31,305 nt of DNA. It comes from a virus. The notes below the pieces were generated by a model. It saw nothing but the letters and a program-made list of their open reading frames with translations. It did no database searches and was not told the origin of the DNA. A program made the position numbers and the translations under genes. This document shows positions 10,037-31,048 of this stretch, one piece after another. Position 1 is the stretch's first letter; the number at the start of each line of letters is the position of its first letter. The stretch lies in IMG/VR virus record IMGVR_UViG_3300023196_002844, positions 1-31,305 of that record; one strand, written 5' to 3'.

Positions 10037-10900
10037 ATGGGAGTTCAAAGAAGAAGCGCAGGATTTATTGGTACAGATAGTAACACTTGGGTTACTTCTC
10101 CATCACCAGTTTATTATGGTATATGGGAACCTAATCTTGTTGTTCAATATAGTGAAGTAAACGAGTGGGCTAGCCCTGGATCATTACCAGCTCAAGAACC
10201 TATCAGTGCATTCCTTTACGGGCCTGCAGAACCTGCAGGATCTGGCCCAGGATCTATAACTATTCCAGCTAGCACACCACATGTCTACGTATTTGTCGCT
10301 GGTGGTGGCGGTGGTGGCGGTGTAGATCATGATGATGGCCAAGCACGTCCTGGAGGAACAGGAGGACAAAGATATGCATTATTTGCAAGGCCTGCAGTAG
10401 CGAATAGTGGACAAACCACTATGAACTACAACGTCGGAAACGGTGGTGCTGGAGCTCCTAATAGATCTAATGATGGCAATGGTGGTGGCGGTAATAACTC
10501 ATCAGTAACCTTTGGAAACTTTAATATGAGTGCCAACGGTGGCGGTGGTGGTTGTGGTAAATGTAATAGTAATGGAAGTACTGGGAACACAAACCAAAAT
10601 GGAACTGTTGTGTTTGGTGGCAACGGTGGTGCTGCGAATAATTATATGACAGGATCTAATGAACCAGCTAATTATGTACCTGTAGTTAATATTCCAGTAA
10701 GCAGTGAAGGCGTTAATTTTAGCAACGGTGCTCCTGGTGGTAACGGTGGATCACAACCCTCCCCTGGCGGCCCTGGTGGAGTCTATGTTAGATTTGGAAG
10801 AGGTATAAATGCTTCGACTGCCCCAGGATCTGGTAATGATTATGGCATACCTAATCCTTCATATGGCGTACCAGATGCGGCTAAATTGTTAGATATTTAA
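10037..10900 (+). CDS. Glycine-rich putative tip adhesin
   Basis: 287 aa with a strong ribosome site (AGAGGAGAATT before the ATG). Residues 1-75 are Gly-poor (MGVQRRSAGFIGTDSNTWV...) and probably attach the protein. After a VYVFVAGGGGGGG strand, residues about 88-250 are runs of Gly with Asn, Ser and Pro, the pattern of the Gly-rich domains proposed to fold as polyglycine II helices in phage adhesins. A CGKC pair (10553-10564) lies inside the Gly-rich part. It is followed at once by the first oxygenase cluster (two bases between stop and next ATG), so adhesin and oxygenases are probably on one transcript. Receptor unknown. Confidence 0.72.
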   Translation: MGVQRRSAGFIGTDSNTWVTSPSPVYYGIWEPNLVVQYSEVNEWASPGSLPAQEPISAFLYGPAEPAGSGPGSITIPASTPHVYVFVAGGGGGGGVDHDDGQARPGGTGGQRYALFARPAVANSGQTTMNYNVGNGGAGAPNRSNDGNGGGGNNSSVTFGNFNMSANGGGGGCGKCNSNGSTGNTNQNGTVVFGGNGGAANNYMTGSNEPANYVPVVNIPVSSEGVNFSNGAPGGNGGSQPSPGGPGGVYVRFGRGINASTAPGSGNDYGIPNPSYGVPDAAKLLDI

Positions 10901-10902
10901 TT

Positions 10903-11559
10903 ATGGAACAATTTATATTTACCAGAATGTTGAAAAATACATCCTGGTGTGAAGAAGGTATTAAATGGTTTGAAAAATTTAAAGATAAACAAACACCTGG
11001 AGTTTGCTCAAACGGATATAAAGGTGATGTTTTTGAGGACACTAAAAAATCCACCGACATAAGTGTCAGAATGGTGGATTTAAAGTGTAATATGTTTAAA
11101 CTGGAAGAAAAAGAAGATTTTTTTAAACCTATATTTACTGAAATAAAAGAATTATATTTTGATTATACAAAAATATATTCTGAAATATTAAATATGGATC
11201 GTCTTGAGATTATGCCAGTTTTTAATATGCAAAAATATATTGATGGTGGACACTTTAAACAATATCATTTTGAAAGTAGTAGTAGACTTACTAGGCATCG
11301 TGTGCTAGTGTGGATGATATACTTGAATGATGTAGAGGAGGGTGGAGAAACTTATTTTCCATATCTTGATCTACGATTCAAACCAAAAAAGGGGCAAATT
11401 TTATTGTGGCCTGCAGATTTTACTCATACGCATTGCGGAGAGGAAGTTATAGAAGGGCATAATAAATATATTATGACAGGATGGATCGGACTTACCCCAT
11501 CTTGCGTCAACGAAATTAATTTTAATAAATTACCTGAAGGTACGATTCTTTATGACTGA
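10903..11559 (+). CDS. 2OG-Fe(II) oxygenase, prolyl-4-hydroxylase-like, HxE variant
   Basis: 218 aa. The C-terminal half has the prolyl-4-hydroxylase double-stranded beta-helix order: MPVFNMQKYIDGGHF, YHFE (H122, E124), a VWMIYLNDVEEGGET strand, KPKKGQILLWPADFTHTH (H175 or H177 as distal ligand), then K188 in NKYIMTGW as the likely 2OG-binding base. The family normally has HxD; here the acid is Glu, which is rare and may lower activity or change the reaction. Members use O2 and 2-oxoglutarate to hydroxylate proteins or small molecules in the cytoplasm. It is the first gene of an overlapping set of five and follows a Gly-rich adhesin by two bases. The next gene starts eight bases before its stop. 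Substrate unknown. Confidence 0.82.
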   Translation: MEQFIFTRMLKNTSWCEEGIKWFEKFKDKQTPGVCSNGYKGDVFEDTKKSTDISVRMVDLKCNMFKLEEKEDFFKPIFTEIKELYFDYTKIYSEILNMDRLEIMPVFNMQKYIDGGHFKQYHFESSSRLTRHRVLVWMIYLNDVEEGGETYFPYLDLRFKPKKGQILLWPADFTHTHCGEEVIEGHNKYIMTGWIGLTPSCVNEINFNKLPEGTILYD

Positions 11560-12157
11560 AATAAATGAACTGGTAAATCTTTATCCAACACCAATATGTG
11601 TTCATAATTTTAATTCGGATATTTTTGTAAAATATAAGGGAGAAATTTTAAAAACTTACTCTGATATTTGTACTGATGAAAGTAATTCTTTTGTCACAAC
11701 TGATGATGGAAGCGATACTAATGAGCAAAAAACATCTATCGGATTCAATATATTTTCAAGAGAGGATTTGCAAGAATTAATTGGTGAATATTTTGTACCA
11801 CAAATTCTTCTTGATTATTGCATATCCTTATCAATTAAAATGCCTGGGCGATTGAGATTCTCACGTATTTGTAAACTTAAAAAAGGTGAGAAAAAAAGTT
11901 TTAAAGATCTTGGTTCTGTTTTATCATTAATTTTCGCAGTTCATTGTGATCCTGAGGATTGTATCGATATTATCAATCCTGCGTTTTATTTTCAGTCTAG
12001 TAAAATGATTCCTGAAATTATAAATGGAGCTAATGCACAAGTTATTTCTTTTCCTTTAGTTGGAAAAGCATATATGTTCCCATCAGCAACTAATTATGAT
12101 ATTGCAGCAAAAAATCAAGATTTGACATTTGTGCAACTAGGATTCATGTATGACTAA
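11552..12157 (+). CDS. Degenerate 2OG-Fe(II) oxygenase-like protein (probable pseudoenzyme)
   Basis: 201 aa, overlapping both neighbours by eight bases. It starts with LVNLYPTPICVHNF, like the (Y/F)PTPI opening of the phage 2OG-FeII_Oxy_5-type oxygenases, and keeps strands that fit the core (LSLIFAVHCDP, AQVISFPLVGKAYMFPS). Where relatives have HxH it reads KSFKD, and after the FPS strand there is no His and no Arg before the final LGFMYD. The iron and 2OG ligands therefore seem to be gone although the frame is intact. It could be a partner or scaffold for the enzymes beside it, or an unrelated protein with a chance resemblance. The assignment rests on pattern and position only. Confidence 0.5.
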   Translation: MTEINELVNLYPTPICVHNFNSDIFVKYKGEILKTYSDICTDESNSFVTTDDGSDTNEQKTSIGFNIFSREDLQELIGEYFVPQILLDYCISLSIKMPGRLRFSRICKLKKGEKKSFKDLGSVLSLIFAVHCDPEDCIDIINPAFYFQSSKMIPEIINGANAQVISFPLVGKAYMFPSATNYDIAAKNQDLTFVQLGFMYD

Positions 12158-12692
12158 TGTCTTACCATTTTTTGTTCCAATTTCAATATTAAAAGTTCAA
12201 AATTGGCAAGACAAAAGAAAAAAATTAGAGAAATCTTTGTTAGATTTAAGAAAAATAGATAGCAAAGATGAATTCATTAGTACAGATTATCATGATTTTA
12301 AAGGTGACAAGATAAATGCATCTGAAATATTTGAAGATGAACTAAATGAATTTTGCAAAACAATTAACGCAAGTTCTTTCAGTGTAAAAAAATCCTGGAT
12401 TGAAGATCAAGATAAGAATATGTACCATAGTGTTCATAATCATGGTGCAATAGGATTTAGTGCTATATGTTATTTAAATTTTGATCCAGAAGTTCATCGC
12501 TCCGTTAAATTTGTCTCTCCATTTAGTAATTGGCAGAATGGGGTTCAAATGGATTGGAGTCCAGAGGATGATGATATACAAGTAGAAGAATCAACCATTA
12601 TATTTTTTCCATCGTTTTTACTTCATTATACATTCTCTAATGTTTCGGATAAAAGAAGAACAGTAGTCTCATTTAATTTTGATTATGTTTAA
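12150..12692 (+). CDS. 2OG-Fe(II) oxygenase (HxH type, 2OG-FeII_Oxy_5-like)
   Basis: 180 aa. The motif set is clear: HNH (H96, H98) within SVHNHGAIGFSAICYLNF, then a VKFVSPF strand, then STIIFFPSFLLHYTF with distal H159, then KRRTVVSFNF with R169/R170 for 2-oxoglutarate. HxH instead of HxD is usual for this phage and marine-bacterial family. The N-terminal 75 residues are helical. It starts inside the stop of the preceding gene (ATGACTAA overlap) and shares eight bases with the next one, so it is translationally coupled. Likely a cytoplasmic hydroxylase; substrate unknown. Confidence 0.82.
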   Translation: MTNVLPFFVPISILKVQNWQDKRKKLEKSLLDLRKIDSKDEFISTDYHDFKGDKINASEIFEDELNEFCKTINASSFSVKKSWIEDQDKNMYHSVHNHGAIGFSAICYLNFDPEVHRSVKFVSPFSNWQNGVQMDWSPEDDDIQVEESTIIFFPSFLLHYTFSNVSDKRRTVVSFNFDYV

Positions 12693-13170
12693 TATAACAT
12701 CAGAACCAGTTCTTTATAAAAATTTCTATAATAACGTTGTAGAATGGGATGAGGCACTTCAGCATATTGATGCGCTTGAAAAGGATGGGGGAATAAATGA
12801 CAAATCAATTGTGTTGAAGCATAGTCATGGATTTATCTCATATAAAGCAGAAAGACTAGAGAGTGTTCAATCACTGTTTAAAATTTTACAAGAAAAAATA
12901 CATAATACAGATTACCCTGTTGCATCTGCACATCTTTATGGGGGTATAACTTCAAACAGTAAAGTATCTGAACGCCATTGTGATTATTGTCATGTCTGGT
13001 ATTGGCAATGTAAAGGACAGACTAAATGGATTATTGATGGTGAAAAATTTAATCCCCAATCTTTTATATTGAATGAAGGTGACTTAATATATGTACCACC
13101 CAAATTTAATCATGAAGTTATTCCTCTATCTCCAAGATTAGGTATATCGTTTGGATCAGAATTACGATGA
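12685..13170 (+). CDS. JmjC/cupin-like Fe(II) oxygenase
   Basis: 161 aa from the ATG at 12685; a TTG at 12679 is possible but unlikely, because the ATG gives the same eight-base overlap as the neighbouring junctions. The C-terminal half shows the JmjC/cupin_4 pattern: YGGITSNSKVSERHCD (H98, D100), WYWQCKGQTKWIIDG, a FILNEGDLIYVPPKFNHEV strand pair with distal H143, and a PRLGISFG end. In this class HxD...H binds Fe(II) and the reaction is hydroxylation, often of protein side chains (ribosomal oxygenases, for example). At 161 aa it is a minimal core. It is the only member of the row from this branch of the superfamily. Its last bases overlap the next gene by four (ATGA). Confidence 0.75.
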   Translation: MFNITSEPVLYKNFYNNVVEWDEALQHIDALEKDGGINDKSIVLKHSHGFISYKAERLESVQSLFKILQEKIHNTDYPVASAHLYGGITSNSKVSERHCDYCHVWYWQCKGQTKWIIDGEKFNPQSFILNEGDLIYVPPKFNHEVIPLSPRLGISFGSELR

Positions 13171-13679
13171 AATATAGAGTAGTTGATAATTTTATGCCGG
13201 AGGACTTTCATAGTGCTCTTTGGGAATTAGTGTCAAGTTTTAGGTTCCCTTGGTTTTATGGTGCAAAATCAAATTATAATCCAGAATGCCCATATATTGA
13301 ACAGAAAGATAGTTTAGATGATTATCATTTTGTACATCACTTCTACGATAATGATAAACCAGTTAGTCCTTTTCATGAGCAATTGATAGTTCCATTATTG
13401 GAAGAAATGGGTGCCATATCTAGTATAAGAATAAAAGCAAATTGGCACCCAAGAACTGAAACTGTTTATGAAAATCCTCTCCACAAAGATTATCCTTTTG
13501 AACATAAAGGAGCAGTCTATTATATAAACAGTAATGATGGATATACTATCTTTGAAGATGGGACAAAGATAGAAAGCGTTGCCAATAGAATGCTATTATT
13601 TGAATCATTTAATTTTCATCGCTCCACTACATGTACCAATGCAAGAGGACGATTCAATATAAATTTTAATTACTTCTAA
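13167..13679 (+). CDS. 2OG-Fe(II) oxygenase (FPWFY family), paralogue 1
   Basis: 170 aa. It has an N-terminal FRFPWFY box (residues 25-31), then IRIKANWHP, HKD (H106, D108), GAVYYINSNDGYTIFEDG, NRMLLFESFNFHRS (H151) and RGRFNINFNYF (R162). This is a full Fe and 2OG ligand set in the order of prolyl-4-hydroxylase-like phage enzymes. The protein at 29667 has the same FPWFY box and the same ligand spacing, so the two are paralogues placed at opposite ends of the island. The start overlaps the previous stop (ATGA). It closes the first oxygenase row; a fibre-associated gene follows 25 bases later. Substrate unknown. Confidence 0.82.
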   Translation: MKYRVVDNFMPEDFHSALWELVSSFRFPWFYGAKSNYNPECPYIEQKDSLDDYHFVHHFYDNDKPVSPFHEQLIVPLLEEMGAISSIRIKANWHPRTETVYENPLHKDYPFEHKGAVYYINSNDGYTIFEDGTKIESVANRMLLFESFNFHRSTTCTNARGRFNINFNYF

Positions 13680-15374: not shown

Positions 15375-16340
15375 ATGAGTATTTTCAGCAACTTTTTTGT
15401 AAAACAAAAACCAATTTTTACTGGTTTGCGATTTGGTTTTGGTTCAGGTTCTGGCGAGGCGGCTCCAAAGCTTCCTGCGGTTGTTACCAGTAATGGAACT
15501 GTTGTTACAGTTGGTGATAAAACAATTCATATTTTTACTTCACCCGGAACACTAACCGTAGCGGATGGAAGTGTTGTTGCTGATTACTTAATTGTTGGTG
15601 GAGGTGGCTCAGGCGGAGGAGGAGCATCCCCTGGTGGTGGTGGAGGTGGTGCTGGTGGTATGTTGAATAGCACTGGTACTATACCTGTTGGAGTTCATGC
15701 TATTACTGTTGGTGATGGTGGTACTTTTGCCCCAGGTAGTGTTCAGTCAGGAGATCCATCTCAAATTGGATCTGTTTTTGTAGCTCAAGGAGGAGGACAT
15801 GGCAGCCGCACTGGCACTGGAGGAAATGGTGGATCCGGTGGTGGTGGTAATGGTGGAGATAACACACATCCTATGACTGGACCTGGGGGATATGGAAATA
15901 GAGAAACCGACACTAACAATGCAGTACCAGATCAAGGAAATAATGGAGGAAATAGTCACCCCTCTGGATCTGAAGGTTACGGAGGATCTGGTGCTGGCGG
16001 TGGCGGAGCTGGCGCTGGTGGTTCGAATGCACCTAATCCTCGGGGTGGTGGTAACGGTGGTAATGGGCTTCCTAATTCTTGGATTCCTAGTTCATATGGA
16101 ACAACTGGGCCATCACCTGGAAGATGGTTTTCAGGTGGAGGCGGTGGATCTTCCAGAAGTGACTCTGGTGGTAATTGGCCTAATCCTAGTGGAACTACTG
16201 GTGGATCCGGTGGTGGAGGCCGAGGAACAGGCCAAAGTAATCCTTCAGTGGCCGGAACCGCCAATACAGGTGGAGGTGGCGGAGATAACAGAAATGGTGG
16301 ATCAGGATTTGTTGCTATTAGAATAGATACTGAGCAGTAA
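15375..16340 (+). CDS. Glycine-rich tip adhesin with shared N-terminal docking motif
   Basis: 321 aa. The N-terminus KQKPIFTGLRFGFGSGSG belongs to a motif (KxKP-x-x-G-L/S-x-FG-x-G) that also begins the proteins at 19418, 20391 and 21993. After a VHIFTSPGTL-like strand pair (TIHIFTSPGTLTV), VADYLIVGGGGSGGGG opens a long Gly-rich domain (about 70-315) rich in Gly, Asn, Ser and Pro, ending in GGSGFVAIRI. A Gly-rich block between such strands is known in phage tip proteins and other secreted Gly-rich proteins. It directly follows a fibre gene, so it is a good candidate for a gp38-like adhesin on that fibre. Antisense proline-rich frames here are artefacts of the Gly codons. Confidence 0.75.
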   Translation: MSIFSNFFVKQKPIFTGLRFGFGSGSGEAAPKLPAVVTSNGTVVTVGDKTIHIFTSPGTLTVADGSVVADYLIVGGGGSGGGGASPGGGGGGAGGMLNSTGTIPVGVHAITVGDGGTFAPGSVQSGDPSQIGSVFVAQGGGHGSRTGTGGNGGSGGGGNGGDNTHPMTGPGGYGNRETDTNNAVPDQGNNGGNSHPSGSEGYGGSGAGGGGAGAGGSNAPNPRGGGNGGNGLPNSWIPSSYGTTGPSPGRWFSGGGGGSSRSDSGGNWPNPSGTTGGSGGGGRGTGQSNPSVAGTANTGGGGGDNRNGGSGFVAIRIDTEQ

Positions 16341-16416: not shown

Positions 16417-17043
16417 ATGGCATTTCAATCTGTTTGGTACTACACCGAATTGCCCCAAGATGTAATAGAGATTATTGAAAAAGAGTTGTCTGTGCAGTTT
16501 GATCCCCAAATGGCAGACTCTAAACTACATGGTGATGCTCTGAATAAAGAGAAAAGGAACTCACAAAATGCCTGGATCCCTACCACTCATTGGATTGGTG
16601 GATTTATGTGGCATTATATTCAGAGAGCAAATCGTGAGAACTTTCTATATGATTTAAAATGTATTGATGGGGAATCAATGCAATATACTCGGTATGGTGA
16701 AGGACAATTTTATGGATGGCATAATGATGCTGGACTTTCTACTCAATACAAACCCGTAACCGCTGGTAATAGAGGATTTGACGGTGGTATTGCACAAGAT
16801 TTTATGAATGAAAATTGTGAGATGGTTCGTAAATTATCTTTTTCATTACAACTCTCTGATCCAGATGATTATGAGGGAGGAAATGTACAACTTCTTGATG
16901 AAGCAGGTAATAATTATTTTGCACCACGAAGACGTGGTTCGGTTATTCTATTTGACTCTCGCACACAACACCGAGTTCTGAAAGTTACGAAAGGTGTTCG
17001 TAAGTCTATTGTCGGATGGACTGTTGGCCCTCGTTGGAAGTAA
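16417..17043 (+). CDS. 2OG-Fe(II) oxygenase, PKHD/prolyl hydroxylase-type, early gene
   Basis: 208 aa. WHND (H102, D104) in YGWHNDAGLS, LSFSLQLSDPDDYEGGNVQL as the central strands, RRRGSVILFDSRTQHRV with distal H185, and RKSIVGWTVGP with the 2OG-binding base (R195 or K196). This closely fits the PKHD-type/prolyl-4-hydroxylase family commonly seen in T4-like cyanophages. Members hydroxylate protein or peptide targets; the phage substrate is not known. Unlike the other oxygenases here, it has its own perfect sigma-70 promoter and codon use closer to ordinary phage genes. The next oxygenase starts one base after its stop. Confidence 0.88.
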   Translation: MAFQSVWYYTELPQDVIEIIEKELSVQFDPQMADSKLHGDALNKEKRNSQNAWIPTTHWIGGFMWHYIQRANRENFLYDLKCIDGESMQYTRYGEGQFYGWHNDAGLSTQYKPVTAGNRGFDGGIAQDFMNENCEMVRKLSFSLQLSDPDDYEGGNVQLLDEAGNNYFAPRRRGSVILFDSRTQHRVLKVTKGVRKSIVGWTVGPRWK

Positions 17044-17044
17044 T

Positions 17045-17782
17045 ATGACACAAATTAATATGTCTGCAGAAGAGATAGCTCTTCAGGAAAAATTTCATAG
17101 CGGATCTTCTTGGACTAGAAATGAATCTTTTGACAAAAATGGATATTTTGTTGTTAAAGATCTCTGGGATCCGAAAGATCTGACTGAATTGCCACCCGAA
17201 AATAAAGGGCAATATTCCTTCAGAGGGAAAACTATGGAGTTTGAATATATGGATGAGGAAAAACAAGTAAACGGATCTACATCTAGATACTGGTTTCCTC
17301 CATATCGCCCAATTCATTCTCAAATTAGGAGAAAAATTGAAGAAGTAATCGGTAGAAAACTTTATAATACTTATTTTTACGATAGATTTTATAATCCTGG
17401 ACAAGACTTAACTGTACATTGTGATCGCGCTGCATGTGAAATATCTGTCACACTTCATGTTAGTACCAATATTGAAAGTGATGATAAAAACTGGCCAATT
17501 TGGATTAAAACACCTGATACTTATACTGATGAAACCAAAACGGAGATATTAGTACCAGGTGAAAATCGATCTGTTGTTCTTCAACCTGGTGATGGAATGA
17601 TATATAAAGGTTGCGAACGTCCTCATTGGAGAGAACCACTACCTAAGCAATTTAAAAAGAATTGGTATAGGAAAAATGTTGAAATTGATGGATGCTACTA
17701 TCATCAAGTATTTTTTCATTATGTTCTTGCTGATGGACAAAGATCACACTTTGCATATGATTCATATCAAGGACTAGCGTAA
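17045..17782 (+). CDS. 2OG-Fe(II) oxygenase-like protein, second gene of early pair
   Basis: 245 aa from ATG 17045, one base after the preceding stop; the frame is open further upstream inside the previous gene, but that is not a likely start. Candidate ligands are VHCD (H125, D127), a VVLQPGDGMIYKG strand followed by RPHWREP (H194), and GQRSHFAY (R233). The spacing fits a 2OG oxygenase with an insert between the HxD and the distal His. Strands CEISVTLHVS and YYHQVFFHYVLAD complete the core. It shares the early promoter at 16365 with the preceding hydroxylase, so the two probably act together. Substrate unknown. A CTAAATA element after its stop may serve the next gene. Confidence 0.72.
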   Translation: MTQINMSAEEIALQEKFHSGSSWTRNESFDKNGYFVVKDLWDPKDLTELPPENKGQYSFRGKTMEFEYMDEEKQVNGSTSRYWFPPYRPIHSQIRRKIEEVIGRKLYNTYFYDRFYNPGQDLTVHCDRAACEISVTLHVSTNIESDDKNWPIWIKTPDTYTDETKTEILVPGENRSVVLQPGDGMIYKGCERPHWREPLPKQFKKNWYRKNVEIDGCYYHQVFFHYVLADGQRSHFAYDSYQGLA

Positions 17783-20390: not shown

Positions 20391-21338
20391 ATGTTTCATA
20401 ATTTCCATTTAAAACTTAAACCATTCCAAGGTTTATTGGGACTTGGAGGAGGTGTTGCTTCTAGATCAACAGGAGCTGTAAATGTACCGCCACTTACCTC
20501 TCTTCGAATAAAAGCATGGGGAGCTGCGGGTGCTGCTTCATATGGTTGTGGTTCTTATAGTCCAAGTAGTAATGGTGCTGGGGGTGGATTTGTTGATATT
20601 ACTTATACAGTAGGATCATTTGCTAGGGGTGATATACTCCGCATTATGGTTGGACAATCTGGAGTTCGTGATAAACAATCGCAACCATATGGTGGTGGCG
20701 GAGCTGCTGGCGGTTCTGGTGGTTCTTCTGGTGGAGGTGGAACTTTTATTGGTTTTAATCCAGGAGGATCTAATCCCAGTTCAATAACTGCTCCAAATTT
20801 GATTCTTGCCGCTGGTGGTGGTGCTGGTGGAAGCACTGGTACTGGTGGACCTGGCCAACCTGGTAACAATGGCGGCGGTGGCGGGACTACTGGAGCTAAC
20901 GGTTCTGGAAGTGGTGGTACTCAATCTGCTGGTGGTGCTGCTGGAACAGGTGGATTTGGTGGTGGTGGATCTGCTGGTACGGCAGGTAGTTTTATGAACG
21001 GCGGCACGGGTATGAGTTGTAAGGGATCTGGTGGTGGATCAGGATACTATGGAGGCGGCGGTGGTAATGGTGACTGTGGTGCTTGCTCTTCTGGTGCTGC
21101 TGGTGGTGGATCTAGTTATGTGGGACATCCAACAGTTAATACAGTTAATAGTAATGTTCAAGCATGGGGATCTAATCAAAATCCAGTATCAGTAGCAGAT
21201 CCTCATTTTTCTGCCGGGCCTGGTGCTTGGGGTGTAGGTGATTTTGATGGAAATCCTGGACATGTTACCGTTATTGCGAATGGAACTGAGGTAACACACT
21301 ACGATTACACAGGTTCAGATCAATATCACACTATTTAA
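20391..21338 (+). CDS. Glycine-rich tip adhesin resembling the ALK-type Gly-rich domain
   Basis: 315 aa. The docking motif is at the N-terminus (KLKPFQGLLGLGGG). Residues about 38-255 follow the order of the Gly_rich (PF12810) domain known from ALK/LTK receptors and some bacterial proteins: LRIKAWGAAGA, GGGFVDITYTV, GDILRIMVGQSG, GGGGAAGGSGG, GTFIGFN, NLILAAGGGAGG, then AGTGGFGGGGS, GGGSGYYGGGGGNGDCG and GGGSSYVG. In ALK this domain is a bundle of polyglycine II helices joined to a beta sandwich. A CGAC pair is at 21075-21086. The C-terminal 60 residues are Gly-poor. Likely a fibre-tip receptor-binding protein; an oxygenase gene follows seven bases later. Confidence 0.75.
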   Translation: MFHNFHLKLKPFQGLLGLGGGVASRSTGAVNVPPLTSLRIKAWGAAGAASYGCGSYSPSSNGAGGGFVDITYTVGSFARGDILRIMVGQSGVRDKQSQPYGGGGAAGGSGGSSGGGGTFIGFNPGGSNPSSITAPNLILAAGGGAGGSTGTGGPGQPGNNGGGGGTTGANGSGSGGTQSAGGAAGTGGFGGGGSAGTAGSFMNGGTGMSCKGSGGGSGYYGGGGGNGDCGACSSGAAGGGSSYVGHPTVNTVNSNVQAWGSNQNPVSVADPHFSAGPGAWGVGDFDGNPGHVTVIANGTEVTHYDYTGSDQYHTI

Positions 21339-21345
21339 AATTTAA

Positions 21346-21984
21346 ATGAATTATTTACAATCATACTCTATCGATAATCGTCTTAGTGAAAGTGCTATTA
21401 ATAATCTAGTTACCTTTCTTATTAGTAAAGAGCAGGAAATACTTGATTCATATCCTTTTATGAGTGATTATGGCACAAGTCTTACTACCGAGCATGTGTC
21501 TACACGCTCAAATGCATATAATATTTTTAAGTATATTGATGAGTATCCAGATCTTAACATTATTTTTGAGTTTATAAAAACATCCTACTGGAATTATATT
21601 GATAATGTATTTTCTCCTAAAAACTTTACGAATGATCAGCTAGATCCTTCAGTTAGTGCATGGTTAAATGTAATAAGAGAAAGTGAAAGGATTGGAATGC
21701 ACAAGCATTCTGATCAACATCCATCAGGACTTTGGAGTTTTGTTTCTGGAACCATATCTTTAGGTGTATCTAACACTTCTACATTTTATAATGATGGAAG
21801 TTCTACGCATGAAGTTGAAAATGTAGCAGGAGAACTTACATTATTTCCACCATATTTTACACATTGGACTAACCTCCATACTTCTTCGGAACCAAGAGTT
21901 ACTCTAGGATTTGACGTTTTATTCAGACATGATCATGCGCCAGAAGGTATTGATTTTACAAACAATTTGAAAAAATTTAATTAA
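21346..21984 (+). CDS. 2OG-Fe(II) oxygenase (HxH type) placed between two adhesins
   Basis: 212 aa. The core has GMHKHSDQHPSGLWSFVSG (H119, H121), GTISLGVS, AGELTLFPPYFTHWT (H173) and EPRVTLGFDV (R184), the ligand order of the 2OG-FeII_Oxy_5-type enzymes and of the gene at 12150. The N-terminal 105 residues are helical with many aromatics. It stands alone between two adhesins with the same docking motif, seven bases after one and eight before the next, so it is almost certainly co-expressed with them. This is the clearest pairing of one oxygenase with adhesin genes in the window. Substrate unknown; the neighbouring adhesins are the obvious candidates. Confidence 0.8.
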   Translation: MNYLQSYSIDNRLSESAINNLVTFLISKEQEILDSYPFMSDYGTSLTTEHVSTRSNAYNIFKYIDEYPDLNIIFEFIKTSYWNYIDNVFSPKNFTNDQLDPSVSAWLNVIRESERIGMHKHSDQHPSGLWSFVSGTISLGVSNTSTFYNDGSSTHEVENVAGELTLFPPYFTHWTNLHTSSEPRVTLGFDVLFRHDHAPEGIDFTNNLKKFN

Positions 21985-24342: not shown

Positions 24343-24561
24343 ATGTCTGACATTAGAGTAAATAAAATACAGACTGATAACGATTCCGCTGTGCAATTTA
24401 CAAAGGGATTAACAATGCCTTCAACTGTGAATATCACTGCGGGTGTTACTAATGTCACTGGAGTAGTTACAGCAACCCATTTCCACGGAGATGGTTCTGG
24501 ATTAACTAATCTTCCCGGAATTTCCATTGCAAAGGGAATAGGACTTTCATTTATAATATAA
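24343..24561 (+). CDS. Mini-fibre protein 1 (72 aa)
   Basis: 72 aa: a starter segment (MSDIRVNKIQTDN), one repeat module (VTGVVTATHFHGDGSGLTNLP) and a short tail (GISIAKGIGLSFII). GGAGAGAAC lies before the ATG, a fair ribosome site. The same three-part plan is seen in the next two genes. It could be a minimal fibre or spike subunit, or a spare module. Function unknown. Confidence 0.6.
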   Translation: MSDIRVNKIQTDNDSAVQFTKGLTMPSTVNITAGVTNVTGVVTATHFHGDGSGLTNLPGISIAKGIGLSFII

Positions 24562-24565
24562 AAAA

Positions 24566-24790
24566 ATGGCTTCTATACTTAACGTAAATAATATACAATC
24601 AGCCGAAGATTCGGCAGCTTCTCTAACTTTTGGTGGAGTCGTATCTTCTGGATATGCTCTTACATGTGCTGGAGGAATAAATGTTAGTGGTGTTGTGACT
24701 GCAACTTCATTTGTTGGGAACGGCAGTTCTTTGACGAGTTTACCATTAGCAGAATCATCAACAGTCGTCGCTCTGTATCTTATTCAGTAA
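24566..24790 (+). CDS. Mini-fibre protein 2 (74 aa)
   Basis: 74 aa: starter MASILNVNNIQSAED, a VVSSGYALTCAGGINVSG segment, the repeat VVTATSFVGNGSSLTSLP and a short hydrophobic tail (STVVALYLIQ). The SSGYALTCAGG segment is identical to that of the next gene, also at DNA level (36 bases). It starts four bases after the preceding stop. Function unknown. Confidence 0.6.
   Translation: MASILNVNNIQSAEDSAASLTFGGVVSSGYALTCAGGINVSGVVTATSFVGNGSSLTSLPLAESSTVVALYLIQ
24641..24676 (+). repeat. 36-base perfect direct repeat, copy 1
   Basis: Identical to 24867-24902. It lies inside mini-fibre gene 2 and encodes VSSGYALTCAGG. Flanking codons differ, so the copies look like a recent exchange between the two genes. 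Confidence 0.9.
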
Positions 24791-24791
24791 A

Positions 24792-25037
24792 ATGTCAACA
24801 TTAATAGTAGATCAACTCTCCAACAAATCTAATGATGGAGCTATAACTTTTACTAAGGGATTAGTTGTATCTTCTGGATATGCTCTTACATGTGCTGGAG
24901 GAGTTAATGTTGGTGGGGCATTAACTGCAACCTCTCTTTCAGGTGATGGTAATGCAATAACAGGATTGCCTGGAATGAGCACAAAAACTGCGATCGCTTT
25001 TAAAAGAATTCTTACGTTTAATGAGTTTAGAACTTAA
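24792..25037 (+). CDS. Mini-fibre protein 3 (81 aa)
   Basis: 81 aa: starter MSTLIVDQLSNKSND, the shared VVSSGYALTCAGGVNVGG segment, a diverged repeat (ALTATSLSGDGNAITGLP) and a tail with charged residues (TKTAIAFKRILTFNEF). It starts one base after the preceding stop. The three mini-fibres probably arose by tandem duplication. Function unknown. Confidence 0.58.
   Translation: MSTLIVDQLSNKSNDGAITFTKGLVVSSGYALTCAGGVNVGGALTATSLSGDGNAITGLPGMSTKTAIAFKRILTFNEFRT
24867..24902 (+). repeat. 36-base perfect direct repeat, copy 2
   Basis: Second copy of the repeat at 24641-24676, inside mini-fibre gene 3 and in the same reading frame relative to the protein. Confidence 0.9.
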
Positions 25038-25499: not shown

Positions 25500-25958
25500 A
25501 TGGATGGATTAAAGTATTATGCTTTTGGCGGAGCAGAACCAATTTATGTGGAGAGTATTAAGCTTTCTACAGGACAAATAAGAACAGATCCAACTTCCTG
25601 GACAAGTGATGAACTGGCAGATGTTGGAGCAACAGGGCCTTATACAAAACCCTCATATAATATAGATACCCAAGAATTGCAGTGGGATCAAAGCGCACTG
25701 GACTGGAATGTGGTTGCAATTACGTTAGATACGCCAACTGCAATCGAACAGTGGACACAAGTAAGACTTGACAGAAATACTATGTTGGTTGATACTGATC
25801 AATTAATGAATGAAGATTATCCTTTCGCTACAGGCCAAAAAGATGCTTTATTGACTTACAGGGCAGCATTAAGAGATGTTGGAAGTCAATCAGATCCATA
25901 TAATATAACATGGCCTACTCCACCTCAATGCATTAAAGATCACTTTAATTTAGATTAA
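25500..25958 (+). CDS. Tail fibre assembly chaperone-like protein (Phage_tail_APC type)
   Basis: 152 aa with a good ribosome site (AAAGGAGAACAAAA before the ATG). Residues 1-60 (YYAFGGAEPIYVESIKL, RTDPTSWTSDELADVG, a P-x-YN-x-x-TQELQWD end) form an N-terminal domain also seen in the gene at 13705. The C-terminal half matches phage tail assembly chaperones (PF16778-like): WTQVRLDRNTMLVDTD (85-100), LLTYRAALRDV and ITWPTPPQ. Such proteins help fold or attach fibres and are often coded beside the fibre tip gene. A Gly-rich adhesin follows after a one-base gap, the expected client. Confidence 0.75.
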   Translation: MDGLKYYAFGGAEPIYVESIKLSTGQIRTDPTSWTSDELADVGATGPYTKPSYNIDTQELQWDQSALDWNVVAITLDTPTAIEQWTQVRLDRNTMLVDTDQLMNEDYPFATGQKDALLTYRAALRDVGSQSDPYNITWPTPPQCIKDHFNLD

Positions 25959-25959
25959 A

Positions 25960-26877
25960 ATGAATTTACTAAGACGTTTAAATACACTATTTCACGTTAC
26001 TAGTGATCTTTCAGGAAGTGCATCTGCTCTCACATCAGCGGCCGTTTCTTCCGCCAGCGGAACTGGATATGAAGCTGTGCAAGGCACTGATGCTGATTTT
26101 CATAGATGGATCAATTCAAGTGGCCAGCAGGGTGCTGGAAATCAAACAGGTGCTATTACTCTGGGATCAAATGCAACTTGCAGCTTTTATAAAGAAACCA
26201 AATTTATAAAAGGTGCTGGCACTGCTGGTGGAGCTGGTGTCTTAATGGTTGGTGGCGGCGGTGGTACTGGCGGGATGCCGGTTGGACACTCTTCAGGTGG
26301 TGGTGGAGCTGGTAGACTTGTTTTATATGATGACAATTATGTTTCACCTGGACCTAATCAAATAACTGTTGGATACGGCGGACAGAGAACAACTAACCAG
26401 AATGGTACCGGACATCCTGGAGGTACTTCTTCAATACAAGGTGCCTTAGATATTTCTGCTCCTGGTGGTGGCGGTGGTGGCACTTCTTCTGGACAACCAG
26501 CTGGTAACTACCATGGACGCCCTGGAGGCAGTGGCGGTGGCGGTGGATGTGGACATAACAACCAGAACGCTGGTGGTGGTGGCGGTGGACAAGCTCCTGG
26601 TGCTTCCTTTAACGAAGGATCTGGTGGTTCTGGTGGTTGTGGCGCTGGTGGTGGGCCCAATAAGGACTGTGCTCCTTTCGGGTATAATTCCACAAACCTT
26701 AATCTTCCTTCGATATCTCCAAAAGGTGGCAAATTTGCTGCAGGCGGAGGAAGTCCTACAGCCCAAGGCTCAGGTTTAGACGGGACAGGAAATGGAGCAT
26801 ATGGATCGAATGATGGTGGACATGGTATAGTGGTTATAAAAGTAGGTAAACCAAAAACGTTTGATGTTAGAGAGTAA
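25960..26877 (+). CDS. Glycine-rich putative tip adhesin
   Basis: 305 aa. The N-terminus (MNLLRRLNTLFHVTSDLSG) lacks the KxKP docking motif of the other adhesins. Residues 20-85 are Ser/Ala/Gly-mixed (FHRWINSSGQQGAGNQTG), then AGVLMVGGGGGTGG opens a Gly-rich domain (about 90-290) with Pro, Asn, Ser and His, ending GGHGIVVIKV as in other Gly-rich phage tips. Cysteines occur inside the Gly-rich part (GGGGCGH, GGCGAGGG, NKDCAPF). It starts one base after the assembly-chaperone-like gene and is followed 23 bases later by the oxygenase/halogenase row, repeating the adhesin-then-oxygenase order seen at 10037-10903. Confidence 0.73.
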   Translation: MNLLRRLNTLFHVTSDLSGSASALTSAAVSSASGTGYEAVQGTDADFHRWINSSGQQGAGNQTGAITLGSNATCSFYKETKFIKGAGTAGGAGVLMVGGGGGTGGMPVGHSSGGGGAGRLVLYDDNYVSPGPNQITVGYGGQRTTNQNGTGHPGGTSSIQGALDISAPGGGGGGTSSGQPAGNYHGRPGGSGGGGGCGHNNQNAGGGGGGQAPGASFNEGSGGSGGCGAGGGPNKDCAPFGYNSTNLNLPSISPKGGKFAAGGGSPTAQGSGLDGTGNGAYGSNDGGHGIVVIKVGKPKTFDVRE

Positions 26878-26900: not shown

Positions 26901-27428
26901 ATGATAATAAAATTATTGGATATTCTAAGTGATGAAGAAAAATGTCAATTAACTGATGTAATAGAGAATTATTGTGTTGACGATAATTCTCCCGGATGGA
27001 AACTTAATGGATCCAGTAATAGTGATAACGAAGATAAATTATTTTGGTACTTAAATGTAGAAAATAATAAATTTTTTAATGAAGTACTGTTTTCTAAAAT
27101 AAAAGAGATAATAAAAGAATATCTTGATGAAGAAATAGTATATACTAGAATATATTTAAATGGACATACTTTTGGACAACAAGGATATTTCCACACTGAT
27201 GATGATGACTTGGAAGGTAGAACTCTTTTAATTTATTGTAATAATTCTTGGAAAGTAGAGTATTGCGGAGCTACTGTTTTTGATAACGGAAATGAAATAA
27301 TTTCAATGTATCCAGAACCTTTTTCTGCAGTTTATTTTAATGCAAATATCAAACATTTTTCTCAACCAATATCAAAAGATTTTTTAGGATTAAGAATAAC
27401 ACTTGCATATAAATTAAAAGTCATATAA
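26901..27428 (+). CDS. 2OG-Fe(II) oxygenase, prolyl-4-hydroxylase-like
   Basis: 175 aa. It reads YTRIYLNGHTFGQQGYFHTDD (H98, D100), RTLLIYCNNSW, CGATVFDNGNEI, SAVYFNANIKHFSQPI (H152) and LGLRITLAYKL (R165), a complete set of Fe and 2OG ligands with the CGATVF turn typical of prolyl-4-hydroxylase-like enzymes. It is short for the family, nearly only the core. It follows a Gly-rich adhesin and leads the row that contains the halogenase. No ribosome site stands out, and the gene is AT-rich compared with the fibre genes. Substrate unknown. Confidence 0.84.
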   Translation: MIIKLLDILSDEEKCQLTDVIENYCVDDNSPGWKLNGSSNSDNEDKLFWYLNVENNKFFNEVLFSKIKEIIKEYLDEEIVYTRIYLNGHTFGQQGYFHTDDDDLEGRTLLIYCNNSWKVEYCGATVFDNGNEIISMYPEPFSAVYFNANIKHFSQPISKDFLGLRITLAYKLKVI

Positions 27429-27434
27429 ACTGAG

Positions 27435-27470
27435 GTATTAAATAATGAATCTGAGTATTAAATAATGAAT
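27435..27470 (+). repeat. Duplicated start region with six-codon upstream ORF
   Basis: The 16 bases GTATTAAATAATGAAT occur at 27435-27450 and again at 27455-27470. The first ATG (27445) opens a six-codon ORF (MNLSIK) whose TAA overlaps the second ATG (27465), the start of the next oxygenase, as TAATG. This layout could couple or dampen initiation. Confidence 0.75.
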
Positions 27471-28082
27471 ATTCACCATTTTGAGACTCCTATTCCATAC
27501 ATTACAATTAATGATTTATTTGATAGTGATGAATTAGATCTAATATGGGAAGAACTAAAATTTCTTGGACATAAGGAAAAACTTTTTTCTCCAGAAGATA
27601 CTGGATCAGCTTCTAATACAACTGAGAATAACGAAAAGATTCTCTTAAAGAAAAATAATGGAGTTTGGGTAGATCATGTTTATACTGACAGAAAATTTTC
27701 AAATATTTTATCTTTAAACAGAAAAATTTATTCATATCGGCAATTTATTTGGTTGAATCATCCACATTGGTTTTTTAAACAAGATAGTTCATTTACTGAT
27801 ACTACTTTAATTTCATATTATGAAAATTCTGATTACTATCACTCCCATAAAGATCAAGCATATTTTACATGTATAACTTGGTTTTTTAATAATCCAAAAA
27901 GATTTGAAGGAGGTAATTTATTCTTTGATGACTATGATACCAAAATAAAAATAGAAAATAATAAAGCAGTAATATTTCCATCGGTGATTAAACATAGTGT
28001 AGATGAAATAAAAATGAGTTCAGAATATCAAAATAAAGGTATGGGAAGATTTTCTATGACTCAATTTGCTAACATTTCCTAA
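27465..28082 (+). CDS. 2OG-Fe(II) oxygenase directly before the halogenase
   Basis: 205 aa. It shows LISYYENSDYYHSHKD (H128, D130), FTCITWFFNNPKRFEGGNLFF, NKAVIFPSVIKHSV (H177) and GRFSMTQFANI (R195). This is a full 2OG oxygenase signature, with the FEGGNLFF strand characteristic of prolyl-4-hydroxylase-like enzymes. The start at 27465 is the second of two duplicated ATG sites. The halogenase begins five bases after its stop, so the two are co-transcribed and may act on the same target. Strongly AT-rich. Substrate unknown. Confidence 0.84.
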   Translation: MNIHHFETPIPYITINDLFDSDELDLIWEELKFLGHKEKLFSPEDTGSASNTTENNEKILLKKNNGVWVDHVYTDRKFSNILSLNRKIYSYRQFIWLNHPHWFFKQDSSFTDTTLISYYENSDYYHSHKDQAYFTCITWFFNNPKRFEGGNLFFDDYDTKIKIENNKAVIFPSVIKHSVDEIKMSSEYQNKGMGRFSMTQFANIS

Positions 28083-28087
28083 TTGTT

Positions 28088-29674
28088 ATGAAAAATAAAG
28101 AATTAAAAAATATTGTAATCGTTGGTGGAGGTTCTGCCGGATGGATGACGGCCGCCACTCTTGTTAATTTTTTTCCAGAGAAACAAATTGCTTTAATCGA
28201 AAATTCAACAGCACCTTCTTTAGGCGTTGGAGAGAGTACTTTACAGCATATCAAATATTGGATGTATGCTCTAGGTATAGATGAAAAAGAATTTATTGCC
28301 GAGACAGATGCATCTATCAAGTTGAGTATTAAATTTACAGATTTTTATGAAAAAAATTATGGATATTTTCATTATCCATTTGGAAACATTCATTATGAAG
28401 ATAGATCCATGTATAATAATAATACTTGGTTACTTAAAAAAAACTTATATAAAGACACATCTCCACAAGATTATGCAAGAACATTTTTTCCTGCAATGTC
28501 TTTGATTGAAAAGAATAAAATAAGTAAAAATGTTGATGGAAAATTTGGTGATTTCAATTTAAAACACGATTCTGCATATCATTTTGATGCAGTAAAGTTT
28601 GCGAATTGGTTAAAAGACAAATATTGTCTTCCAAAAGGGGTTAAACATATCAATGCAAATGTGGATCACGTTATTTCAAATGAAGATGGGATATCAAATA
28701 TTATTTTAGATAGTGAATTGTCTGTTTCTGCTGATCTTTTTATTGATTGTACTGGATGGAAAAGTTTGTTATTAGGTAATTCTCTCGATATTAAGTTTAA
28801 ATCATATAGTGACATGCTACCAAACAATAAAGCATGGGCAACTAAAATTCCTTATGTAGATAAAGAAAAGGAGTTAGAACCATATACTAACTGTACTGCC
28901 ATTGATAATGGTTGGGTATGGAATATTCCTTTATGGAGTCGTATTGGAACAGGATATGTTTATAGTGACAAATATATAACTGACGATGAAGCTTTAATAG
29001 AATTTAAAAAATATTTAAAAACAAAAACCACAATCTCAAATGAAGAAAGAATTTCAGATGAACTGGAATTTAAAAATATTCAGATGAGAATAGGAATTCA
29101 TGAAAAAACCTGGCATAAAAATGTTGTAGCAATTGGACTTGCAGCTGGATTTGTAGAACCCCTAGAGAGTAATGGTTTATTTACAGTCCATGAATTTTTA
29201 TTAAAATTAGTTGATACCCTAAGTAAGGGAAAAATAAATCAATGGGACATAGATGTTTACAATGATTCAGTTTTTAAACTGTATGATGATTTTGCTAAAT
29301 TTGTAGCACTACATTATAAACTTTCCGTTAGAAATGATACTAGATATTGGAAAGATATTACAAGTAGAGAAGTTAGTACACATTCTATTCTAAAAAATTG
29401 CCAGTTTAGATTGGCAATGGATGTAAAAAATAATAATAATTATCATGTTGATAGTGGAGGATTTCATTGTATAGCAAATGGAATGAACTATAATGCCATT
29501 TCCATTAATACTATCATGCAAAAAGAATTTTATGAAAATAAAGAAACTACTGAAAGTGAAATATCAAAGATTATAGAATATTGGGACAATCTAAAAGAAA
29601 AATGGAATAAAAACGCAGAAGACGAATTAAGTTTATATAAATTTATGAAAAATGAATTTGATTTGAATGATTAG
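28088..29674 (+). CDS. Flavin-dependent tryptophan halogenase-like enzyme
   Basis: 528 aa, the usual length for the family. The FAD-binding GGGSAGWM is at 13-20, GVGEST at 46-51, the catalytic lysine in SIKLSIKF is K78 (PrnA K79), the halogenase signature GWVWNIP has W276 and W278 (WxWxIP), and FVEPLESN holds E360 and S361, matching the PrnA Glu/Ser pair that orders the active site. All landmarks are intact, so it should use FADH2, O2 and halide to make HOX and halogenate an aromatic or activated carbon; a flavin reductase must come from the host. The substrate end (PrnA H101/W455 region) differs, so free Trp is not a safe guess. VirX1, a halogenase from cyanophage Syn10 reported to favour iodide, is the known precedent and a likely relative. 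It is embedded between 2OG oxygenases and overlaps the next by eight bases. Confidence 0.92.
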   Translation: MKNKELKNIVIVGGGSAGWMTAATLVNFFPEKQIALIENSTAPSLGVGESTLQHIKYWMYALGIDEKEFIAETDASIKLSIKFTDFYEKNYGYFHYPFGNIHYEDRSMYNNNTWLLKKNLYKDTSPQDYARTFFPAMSLIEKNKISKNVDGKFGDFNLKHDSAYHFDAVKFANWLKDKYCLPKGVKHINANVDHVISNEDGISNIILDSELSVSADLFIDCTGWKSLLLGNSLDIKFKSYSDMLPNNKAWATKIPYVDKEKELEPYTNCTAIDNGWVWNIPLWSRIGTGYVYSDKYITDDEALIEFKKYLKTKTTISNEERISDELEFKNIQMRIGIHEKTWHKNVVAIGLAAGFVEPLESNGLFTVHEFLLKLVDTLSKGKINQWDIDVYNDSVFKLYDDFAKFVALHYKLSVRNDTRYWKDITSREVSTHSILKNCQFRLAMDVKNNNNYHVDSGGFHCIANGMNYNAISINTIMQKEFYENKETTESEISKIIEYWDNLKEKWNKNAEDELSLYKFMKNEFDLND

Positions 29675-30191
29675 AGAACTCAAAAATCCACTAACAGAAA
29701 ACTATTTTGCTCTTAAACATCAAGTTTTAAGTAAAACTTTTCCATGGTTTTATTTTCAATACAGTACAGATAATACAAAAATTGAAGGATTTACTGATGT
29801 TCCATTTTATAGTCATACCGTTTTAGAAAGGCCGGGTGAAGGTAATTTATATCCCAAAGTGACATCGAGATATAGTGATTTAGTTGATAATGTTTTAAAA
29901 GAAATTTTAGAATTTAATTCTATTGAGATAAATTGTTTTTTTAGAATTAATTTCAATTGCTCTCATTACTTTGATGGAAAACCAACAATCCCACATTTTG
30001 ATCATAATTTCTCACATAAAAATTTATTAATTTATTTTAATGAATGTCAAGGAGATACTTTCCTTTATGATAAGGAGACATATAAATTTTCCCCTAAAGA
30101 GGATTTAATTATTTCTTTTGAAGGATTGCATGGTTCTGGACAACCATTATTAGGACAAAGGAGAATAGTTATGGTTGCAACTTATTTTTAA
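29667..30191 (+). CDS. 2OG-Fe(II) oxygenase (FPWFY family), paralogue 2
   Basis: 174 aa, starting eight bases inside the halogenase (ATGATTAG overlap). The FPWFY box is at 25-29, then CFFRINFNC, IPHFDHNF (H110, D112), LLIYFNECQGDTFLYD, EDLIISFEGLHGSG (H155) and QRRIVMVATYF (R165/R166). The ligand set is complete. Box and spacing match the gene at 13167. Tight coupling to the halogenase suggests that they act in one pathway. Substrate unknown. It closes the second oxygenase row; a possible promoter lies right after it. Confidence 0.84.
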   Translation: MIRELKNPLTENYFALKHQVLSKTFPWFYFQYSTDNTKIEGFTDVPFYSHTVLERPGEGNLYPKVTSRYSDLVDNVLKEILEFNSIEINCFFRINFNCSHYFDGKPTIPHFDHNFSHKNLLIYFNECQGDTFLYDKETYKFSPKEDLIISFEGLHGSGQPLLGQRRIVMVATYF

Positions 30192-30391: not shown

Positions 30392-30418
30392 GTGTGACAA
30401 TAAAATAAGTGTCCTATG

Positions 30419-30446
30419 CCCGTCAAGTTTTTGCTTGACGGGTTTT
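30419..30446 (+). terminator. Intrinsic terminator
   Basis: A nine-base perfect stem, CCCGTCAAG (30419-30427) with CTTGACGGG (30434-30442), loop TTTTTG, followed by TTTT. It lies after the oxygenase/halogenase row and the 49-codon ORF and probably separates the island from the conserved genes to the right. Confidence 0.75.
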
Positions 30447-30473: not shown

Positions 30474-30572
30474 ATGACTGCCGCTGAAAAACTTTTGTTT
30501 ATCATATCATTTTTCTGGGTAATGAACTGGGGGACTCGTGTAACTTATGCCACGATCAATGCTGTATCTTGA
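30474..30572 (+). CDS. Possible small membrane protein (32 aa)
   Basis: 32 aa with GGAGG close before the ATG (three-base spacer). Residues 6-19 (KLLFIISFFWVMNW) would form one membrane-spanning segment. It overlaps the start of the next gene by 26 bases in another frame. Small membrane peptides are common in phages, but the length leaves real doubt. Confidence 0.35.
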   Translation: MTAAEKLLFIISFFWVMNWGTRVTYATINAVS

Positions 30573-31017
30573 TATACAAGGAAAGGCACCTAGAAGGCGC
30601 TGTAATGAGGTTGTAAAGTGGTTTAAGGCAAAGTATATGCCTTTACATCATTTGGACATTACAATCACTCATAGGGGCATGAAAAAAGAACATGCTATGG
30701 GTTTATGTACTGTCATAGATTGTGATCATCGTCCTCGTGAATTTCTCATTGAAATGGAGACAACACTTTGCAAAGAAGATTATATTTCTACTCTGTTGCA
30801 TGAACTTTGGCATGTCTGGCAGCATGTAAACGGTTCACTTCGTGACAAACGTGGAATTCGACATTGGAAAAACATTGACGCAGATCACTTATCTTATGAG
30901 GATCAACCTTGGGAACATGAAGCAAAAATGATGGAGAACATTCTTTACAATGATTTTATGAGTGTTAACGATGATCCCATCATTTTTTACAATCGCTTGA
31001 CAAAACCATCAATTTAA
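30547..31017 (+). CDS. HExxH zinc metallopeptidase-like protein (SprT-like)
   Basis: 156 aa. STLLHELWHVWQHVNG has the HExxH zinc site (H85, E86, H89), and PWEHEAKMME about 35 residues later supplies a Glu or His as probable third ligand (E123-E125). The arrangement resembles SprT-like and other small gluzincin proteins. The N-terminal half is alpha/beta (MLYLDIQGKAPRRRC, LDITITHRGM). Possible roles are protein cleavage or processing, or a DNA-linked role as in SprT/Spartan; the sequence does not decide. Codon use is less AT-rich than in the oxygenase row, so it is probably a conserved phage gene. A promoter overlaps its 3' end. Confidence 0.68.
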   Translation: MPRSMLYLDIQGKAPRRRCNEVVKWFKAKYMPLHHLDITITHRGMKKEHAMGLCTVIDCDHRPREFLIEMETTLCKEDYISTLLHELWHVWQHVNGSLRDKRGIRHWKNIDADHLSYEDQPWEHEAKMMENILYNDFMSVNDDPIIFYNRLTKPSI

Positions 31018-31024
31018 CTATAAT
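30997..31024 (+). promoter_or_regulatory. Consensus host-type (sigma-70) promoter
   Basis: TTGACA at 30997-31002, a 16-base spacer and TATAAT at 31019-31024. The start would be near 31031, giving a short leader with GGAGG (31033-31037) for the ATG at 31049. An early promoter for the last genes of the window. Confidence 0.78.
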
Positions 31025-31048
31025 ACCTTTGTGGAGGTTAATCGAAGT

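Follow-up and report, generated by a model that had tools for sequence, protein, structure and literature searches.

A predicted VirX1-clade halogenase in a row with three predicted 2-oxoglutarate oxygenases in the tail-fibre region of a Kyanoviridae-like virus

Organisation of the locus

The DNA analysed here, termed the window, makes up a virus record of its own, 31,305 bases long (IMG/VR record IMGVR_UViG_3300023196_002844, positions 1 to 31,305), and our subject is a row of four genes at 26901-30191 in which a putative flavin-dependent halogenase stands among three predicted 2-oxoglutarate (2OG) and Fe(II)-dependent oxygenases. Judging from similarity, the window is the tail-fibre region of a marine Kyanoviridae-like virus (T4-like cyanophage), since the large fibre at 507-6386 shares 50-56% identity with fibres from T4-like phages of Synechococcus and Prochlorococcus and the genes upstream of the row are mostly fibre-, adhesin- or oxygenase-like by Pfam, PHROGs and composition. 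A preliminary description of this DNA gave the order of the row as oxygenase, oxygenase, halogenase, oxygenase, with a five-base gap before the halogenase and an eight-base overlap after it; this is confirmed by the coordinates of the open reading frames (ORFs), all on one strand, with the gap at 28083-28087 and the overlap at 29667-29674. The features of this part of the window are as follows.

25500-25958, + strand: Phage_tail_APC tail-fibre assembly chaperone (Pfam PF16778, E 3e-12; phrog_4912)
25960-26877, + strand: glycine-rich adhesin-like tail-fibre protein directly upstream of the row, the candidate target (phrog_2295, E 2e-10; composition)
26901-27428, + strand: ox1, 2OG-Fe(II) oxygenase-like, phrog_274 family, 175 amino acids (H98, D100, H152, R165)
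27465-28082, + strand: ox2, predicted 2OG-Fe(II) oxygenase (PF13640), 205 amino acids (H128, D130, H177, R195)
28088-29674, + strand: predicted flavin adenine dinucleotide (FAD)-dependent halogenase of the VirX1 clade, 528 amino acids (Pfam, PHROGs, PDB, alignment, tree, model)
28124-28141, + strand: GxGxxG flavin-binding motif of the halogenase, G13-G18
28319-28321, + strand: catalytic Lys78 of the halogenase
28913-28930, + strand: WxWxIP motif of the halogenase (W276, W278, I280, P281)
29165-29170, + strand: Glu360-Ser361 pair of the halogenase (PLES)
29667-30191, + strand: ox3, predicted 2OG-Fe(II) oxygenase, phrog_274 family, 174 amino acids (H110, D112, H155, R166)
30418-30443, + strand: terminator-like hairpin of 11 pairs followed by a T-rich tail, 227 bases past ox3 (consensus scan only)

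The row thus sits beside adhesin-like genes, as had been described. The adhesin-like protein is 28% glycine, with one tryptophan and eight tyrosines, and had no match in searches of the PDB or of phage sequences. Because the consensus scan found no + strand terminator-like site between 26041 and the strong hairpin at 30418-30443, the row appears to close a single transcription unit that also takes in this adhesin.

The halogenase

The halogenase matches the Pfam family Trp_halogenase (E 4e-106, residues 8-442) and phrog_2928, 'tryptophan halogenase' (E 9e-145), and its best solved relative by sequence in a PDB search is VirX1 of cyanophage Syn10 (6qgm; E 1e-99, 338 bits), with the tryptophan halogenases PyrH, PrnA and RebH scoring 275, 223 and 216 bits. 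The GxGxxG motif, the catalytic lysine, WxWxIP and the Glu-Ser pair, which the preliminary description had listed, are all intact in alignments: K78, W276, W278, P281 and E360 are invariant and S361 is conserved at 90% or more in an alignment of 15, Lys78 is also invariant in an alignment of 18 and is aligned with the lysine of VirX1 and PyrH, and the loop that carries the Glu-Ser pair has a low predicted local distance difference test score (pLDDT) in the model. PyrH, PrnA and RebH have the fold and these four motifs in common with the window halogenase, but differ in their lower sequence scores, and no free-tryptophan pathway genes lie nearby in the window.

In the sequence alignment VirX1 reaches residue 520, whereas the four tryptophan halogenase chains shown end near residues 422-462, so that the C-terminal part of the protein appears VirX1-like in sequence; fold alignments of the model to tryptophan halogenases extend to about residue 526, in a region of low pLDDT. 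The AlphaFold model (mean pLDDT 82.5) has the halogenase fold. As VirX1 gives the longest and tightest structural alignment (503 residues, 2.1 Å, Z 42.4) and PrnA the highest Z (46.0 over 477 residues, 2.7 Å), fold alone cannot separate the VirX1 type from the PrnA type.

In a tree of 81 rows, built by a quick method with a Syn9 homologue representing VirX1 and with PrnA and RebH left out, the window halogenase falls inside a 32-row, mostly phage clade together with this Syn9 relative (Shimodaira-Hasegawa-like approximate likelihood ratio test, SH-aLRT, 100). The precedent of VirX1, which the preliminary description had named, therefore holds at the level of the clade. On this placement and the alignments, the enzyme is of a kind already known, a predicted flavin-dependent halogenase of the VirX1 clade. 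VirX1 has the same FAD-dependent fold and motifs and, through the Syn9 homologue, belongs to the same phage clade, but the two genes lie in separate sub-clades and share only 34-37% identity, and the Syn9 relative, unlike the window, has a tandem second halogenase with oxygenases further downstream. The clade stands apart from marine bacterial halogenases and includes a few genome-assembly contigs, among them L073. The nearest rows to the window halogenase are IMG/VR contigs (55% identity to locus L028) and L073 itself, a contig from a Deltaproteobacteria/Myxococcota assembly on which the neighbouring genes are bacterial (AMP-binding enzyme, AcrB) and no oxygenase was detected beside the halogenase.

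The oxygenases

The three remaining genes had been described as 2OG oxygenases, and rightly so by motif for ox1 and ox3, by model for ox3 and by Pfam for ox2. Two of the three (ox1 and ox3) are not callable from Pfam, where ox1 reaches just E 0.15 and nothing useful matches ox3; ox2 passes the cut-off (PF13640, 28.9 bits against 27). Both ox1 (E 1e-21) and ox3 (E 2e-30) match phrog_274, and ox1 also resembles an NCBIfam FlmC-type 2OG oxygenase (E 8e-13, under the family cut-off). Their HxD...H...R signature is invariant in alignments, the triad and arginine of ox2 being assigned by inspection, and the same four residues are kept without exception in 12 diverse phrog_274 members, 7 of which match PF13640. 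The model of ox3, the only one of the three tested, has a mean pLDDT of 92.9, and its structural matches are 2OG-Fe(II) oxygenases, prolyl hydroxylases among them, of the double-stranded beta-helix fold (Z 15.9 to 6n1f, 14.8 to PHD2). It is like the 2OG-Fe(II) prolyl hydroxylases (PHD2 and bacterial prolyl-4-hydroxylase, Z 13.8-14.8) in this fold and in the signature, although the identity is only 12-18%.

Motif and model together argue that phrog_274, a large phage family widely labelled 'DNA endonuclease V', is a family of 2OG-Fe(II) oxygenases; cases are found in the window at 26901-27428, 29667-30191 and 13167-13679 and also at loci L058 and L060-L067. For ox1 and ox3 the 'DNA endonuclease V' (denV) assignment was rejected on the invariant 2OG motif, the PF13640 matches and the ox3 model, a rejection that rests on 2OG identity, the listed matches of the model being 2OG oxygenases and DenV itself not having been compared directly. 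As the label appears wrong, no DNA-repair role should be read from it. A homologue of ox2, 49.5% identical, occurs in Synechococcus phage ACG-2014b, which is absent from the listed halogenase-bearing records.

Enzyme runs across the window

Three further runs of modifying enzymes lie upstream.

10903-13679, + strand: 2OG oxygenases, a JmjC-like gene and one unassigned gene, after glycine-rich ORF 10037-10900
16417-17782, + strand: 2OG oxygenase (PF13640) and an oxygenase-like gene labelled 'ferrochelatase', after glycine-rich ORF 15375-16340
21346-21984, + strand: 2OG-Fe(II) oxygenase (PF13759, by Pfam), directly after glycine-rich ORF 20391-21338

All four runs in the window begin directly behind a glycine-rich ORF (those at 10037, 15375, 20391 and 25960), for which the chance is about 1 in 10,626 if the runs are placed at random after the 24 other genes, a figure for gene classes that were set after the pattern had been seen. 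Overlaps are found at 6 of 8 enzyme-enzyme junctions compared with 1 of 23 other junctions (p 2.5e-4), as counted from ORF lists in which the start of 16994 is uncertain. From 10037 to 30191 the window reads as four successive units, each made up of fibre genes, a glycine-rich ORF and a run of oxygenases, like tandem-stacked alternative adhesin cassettes. Genes labelled 'ferrochelatase' (phrog_2954, T4-GC 615) occur within oxygenase arrays, here at 16994-17782 and elsewhere at L056, L058 and L153; the window gene bears an HCD motif and its setting is oxygenase-like, and the label looks wrong. An HCD motif is also present in the 201-amino-acid ORF at 11552-12157, within an oxygenase run, which has neither a clear full signature nor a clear Pfam or PHROG family.

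Occurrence in related phages

The co-occurrence of oxygenases with the halogenase in other phages, proposed earlier as a check, proved to be non-random. The halogenase lies no more than 2.5 kb from an oxygenase in 12 of 17 whole phage genomes, where 4.2 are expected by random placement (P about 6e-5), and in 9 of 11 genomes of the VirX1-clade subset, where 2.9 are expected; such P values are optimistic and the true significance is lower, as the compared genomes are related. In the VirX1 clade, dereplicated, an oxygenase-type gene (oxygenase, JmjC or 'ferrochelatase'-type) is found within three genes in 21 of 32 members and a glycine-rich ORF within six genes upstream in 20 of 32, counts from which short contigs may hide some neighbours. 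At bacterial loci an oxygenase was detected within three genes in only 9 of 74, with profiles derived from phage proteins, which could overlook bacterial oxygenases; three genome-assembly contigs with a phage-like gene layout (L074, L075 and L076) were excluded from the bacterial evidence. L076 (NZ_RMVE01000006.1, a 188 kb contig of 'Nonlabens xiamenensis') has, in the stretch seen, the layout of cyanophage P-TIM40 and is probably a phage contig.

The halogenase is flanked on either side by oxygenases in the window, in phage Sf-CH11 and in L075, similar layouts are seen in Sf-CH11, L075 and L022-L026, and the order oxygenase, halogenase, oxygenase is repeated in Sf-CH11, L075, L023/L024 and L010. 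In Sf-CH11 (PV340848, L056) a fibre and a glycine-rich protein are followed by two 2OG oxygenases, a halogenase (47.7% identity to that of the window), a 2OG oxygenase and a 'ferrochelatase'; it differs in having no Phage_tail_APC-type gene directly ahead of the adhesin and in a second glycine-rich protein that follows. The halogenase precedes an oxygenase array in Syn9, S-RIM44, S-CREM1, Sf-FP1, P-RSM6, P-TIM40, S-SZBM1 and S-WAM1. At least three halogenase-like genes per cluster, accompanied by oxygenases, are present at L009-L011 and L029, with a carbamoyltransferase also at L009. At L007, L013 and L017 the halogenase lies beside a glycine-rich and a collagen-repeat protein (PF01391 in L007), with no oxygenase detected.

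Discussion

The row may be seen as the distal end of a tail-fibre/adhesin series in which a chaperone and a glycine-rich adhesin are followed by two predicted 2OG-Fe(II) hydroxylases, a halogenase of the VirX1 type, a third predicted hydroxylase and a terminator-like hairpin. The halogenase would be supplied with reduced FAD (FADH2) by a flavin reductase of the host, form hypohalous acid and, via Lys78, attach a halogen (chlorine, bromine or iodine) to an electron-rich aromatic ring, and the oxygenases would use 2-oxoglutarate and O2 to hydroxylate side chains; both kinds of enzyme would act after translation on a tail-fibre or adhesin protein of their own gene series, the outcome being a receptor-binding tip with a chemistry beyond the 20 amino acids, or a stabilised fibre. 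The activities, a protein as substrate and the adhesin as target are what we infer here, and from position the likeliest reading, which we put forward tentatively, is that the halogenase and oxygenases modify a protein of the tail-fibre module; that all four act jointly on one adhesin is rather doubtful. Protein substrates are plausible for both kinds of enzyme, as their fold relatives include protein hydroxylases (some of the ox3 matches, which comprise PHD2 and prolyl-4-hydroxylases) and, for the halogenase, MibH, the title of whose entry names a lanthipeptide tryptophan 5-halogenase.

Several observations weigh against so close a tie. In 11 of the 32 dereplicated members of the clade no oxygenase-type gene stands within three genes of the halogenase, and in seven of the 11 (S-B64, S-MbCM6, L014, L027, L028, L073 and L077) the six genes upstream include no glycine-rich ORF either; the halogenase lies beside recombination genes in S-B64, beside psbA in S-MbCM6 and near zwf/gnd in L028, and that of the bacterial L073 is likewise away from fibres and oxygenases. 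The adhesin at 25960 has the fewest tryptophans of the four glycine-rich ORFs, the others having three each, so that a tryptophan-rich adhesin as the target is not supported, and its tyrosines remain as possible sites. Tail-fibre regions are moreover prone to insertion, and the proximity of these genes may follow from where new genes can be taken up.

An obligate pairing of halogenase and oxygenases was rejected on the 11 clade members, and the successive tailoring of one target suggested in the preliminary description is, if obligate, not supported, oxygenases being lacking also beside the more distant phage halogenase of S-PM2 and in S-SRM01, on a more distant branch, where the halogenase lies between a tail fibre and a gp37/gp38 adhesin tip. 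Relatives without oxygenases, which had been expected to speak against a link, are thus found in about a third of the clade, yet the 12 of 17 genomes show that the link is not random. In L027 a glycine-rich domain protein lies downstream of the halogenase, and L007 keeps the fibre and the glycine-rich protein. Oxygenases occur beside fibres in S-SM2 and ACG-2014b with no halogenase in the stretch examined, and an oxygenase relative is found in 254 phage records compared with 69 for a halogenase relative. Given these absences in both directions and the record counts, the oxygenases are the more widespread element of fibre regions, to which the halogenase is an optional addition; the halogenase is therefore probably an optional member of an enzyme set which serves the tail-fibre module, modifying a virion protein.

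The halogenase might instead be the product of an auxiliary metabolic gene and act on a free small aromatic metabolite (an indole, a phenol or a pigment precursor of the host), perhaps protecting the infected cell, with its neighbours incidental. Its fold and core relatives include free-tryptophan halogenases, VirX1 reportedly iodinates numerous small substrates in vitro (PMC8407142), some relatives adjoin metabolic genes (zwf/gnd-like in L028, psbA in S-MbCM6, an AMP-binding enzyme and a methyltransferase in L073), and cyanophage prnA has been linked, speculatively, to antibiotic protection (PMC2984593) or cell protection (PMC9146016). We consider this somewhat unlikely, given that the sequence alignment to free-tryptophan halogenases fades before the C-terminal part, that the recurrent site is among fibre genes and not in a metabolic cluster, and that the literature searched reports no in vivo substrate of a phage halogenase.

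It is also conceivable, although unlikely, that the tail-fibre region is an insertion hotspot which gathers accessory genes, the halogenase and oxygenases adjoining without acting together. This would accommodate the oxygenase arrays of S-SM2 and ACG-2014b, the excess of records with an oxygenase relative, the widely varying gene order and SynMITS9220M01, in which the same large fibre is followed by no annotated oxygenase or halogenase; it accords less well with the tight spacing and overlaps inside the enzyme runs and with the repeated order of oxygenase, halogenase and oxygenase. A glycan, or another surface molecule of host or virion, would be an improbable substrate in place of the adhesin protein: other phage halogenases do adjoin carbamoyltransferases, heptose enzymes and glycosyltransferases (S-SSM7; L009, L012), L007 has a glycosyltransferase and L002 an NAD-dependent epimerase, but no sugar enzyme was found in the window and the substrates from which flavin-dependent halogenases are known are aromatic.

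T4-like cyanophages are already known to carry halogenase and oxygenase genes (PMC3037559, PMC2984593, PMC10452541). The prnA-like cluster T4-GC 212 (Sullivan et al. 2010, PMC3037559) comprises T4-like cyanophage halogenases annotated as tryptophan halogenase, alongside many 2OG-Fe(II) oxygenases, for which that paper proposes 2-oxoglutarate balance and DNA repair; in the passages found, the halogenase is not tied to fibre genes. The literature searched, mostly without subscription papers and as titles, starts of abstracts and passages, contained no link of phage halogenases or oxygenases to fibre modification, and the recurrent fibre-region context of the phage halogenase is apparently undescribed. 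That literature does not say on what phage halogenases such as VirX1 naturally act, and the recurrent place behind tail-fibre genes turns a vague question into one directly testable on fibre proteins. Should a fibre protein indeed be the substrate, phages would widen their receptor-binding chemistry through protein halogenation. The broader proposition, that T4-like cyanophages carry adhesin-specific sets of hydroxylases and an optional halogenase which diversify the fibre tip, with host recognition via halogenated or hydroxylated residues, is one that we hold to be fairly doubtful.

Minor features of the window

Three short adjoining ORFs at 24343-25037 (72, 74 and 81 amino acids) are alike in sequence and are apparently tandem duplicates of a fibre piece. 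Beyond the hairpin, a sequence that fits the sigma-70 type promoter consensus perfectly (TTGACA, 16 bases, TATAAT) lies at 30997-31024, just upstream of a small ORF at 31031, and overlaps the end of an SprT-like metallopeptidase ORF at 30547-31017.

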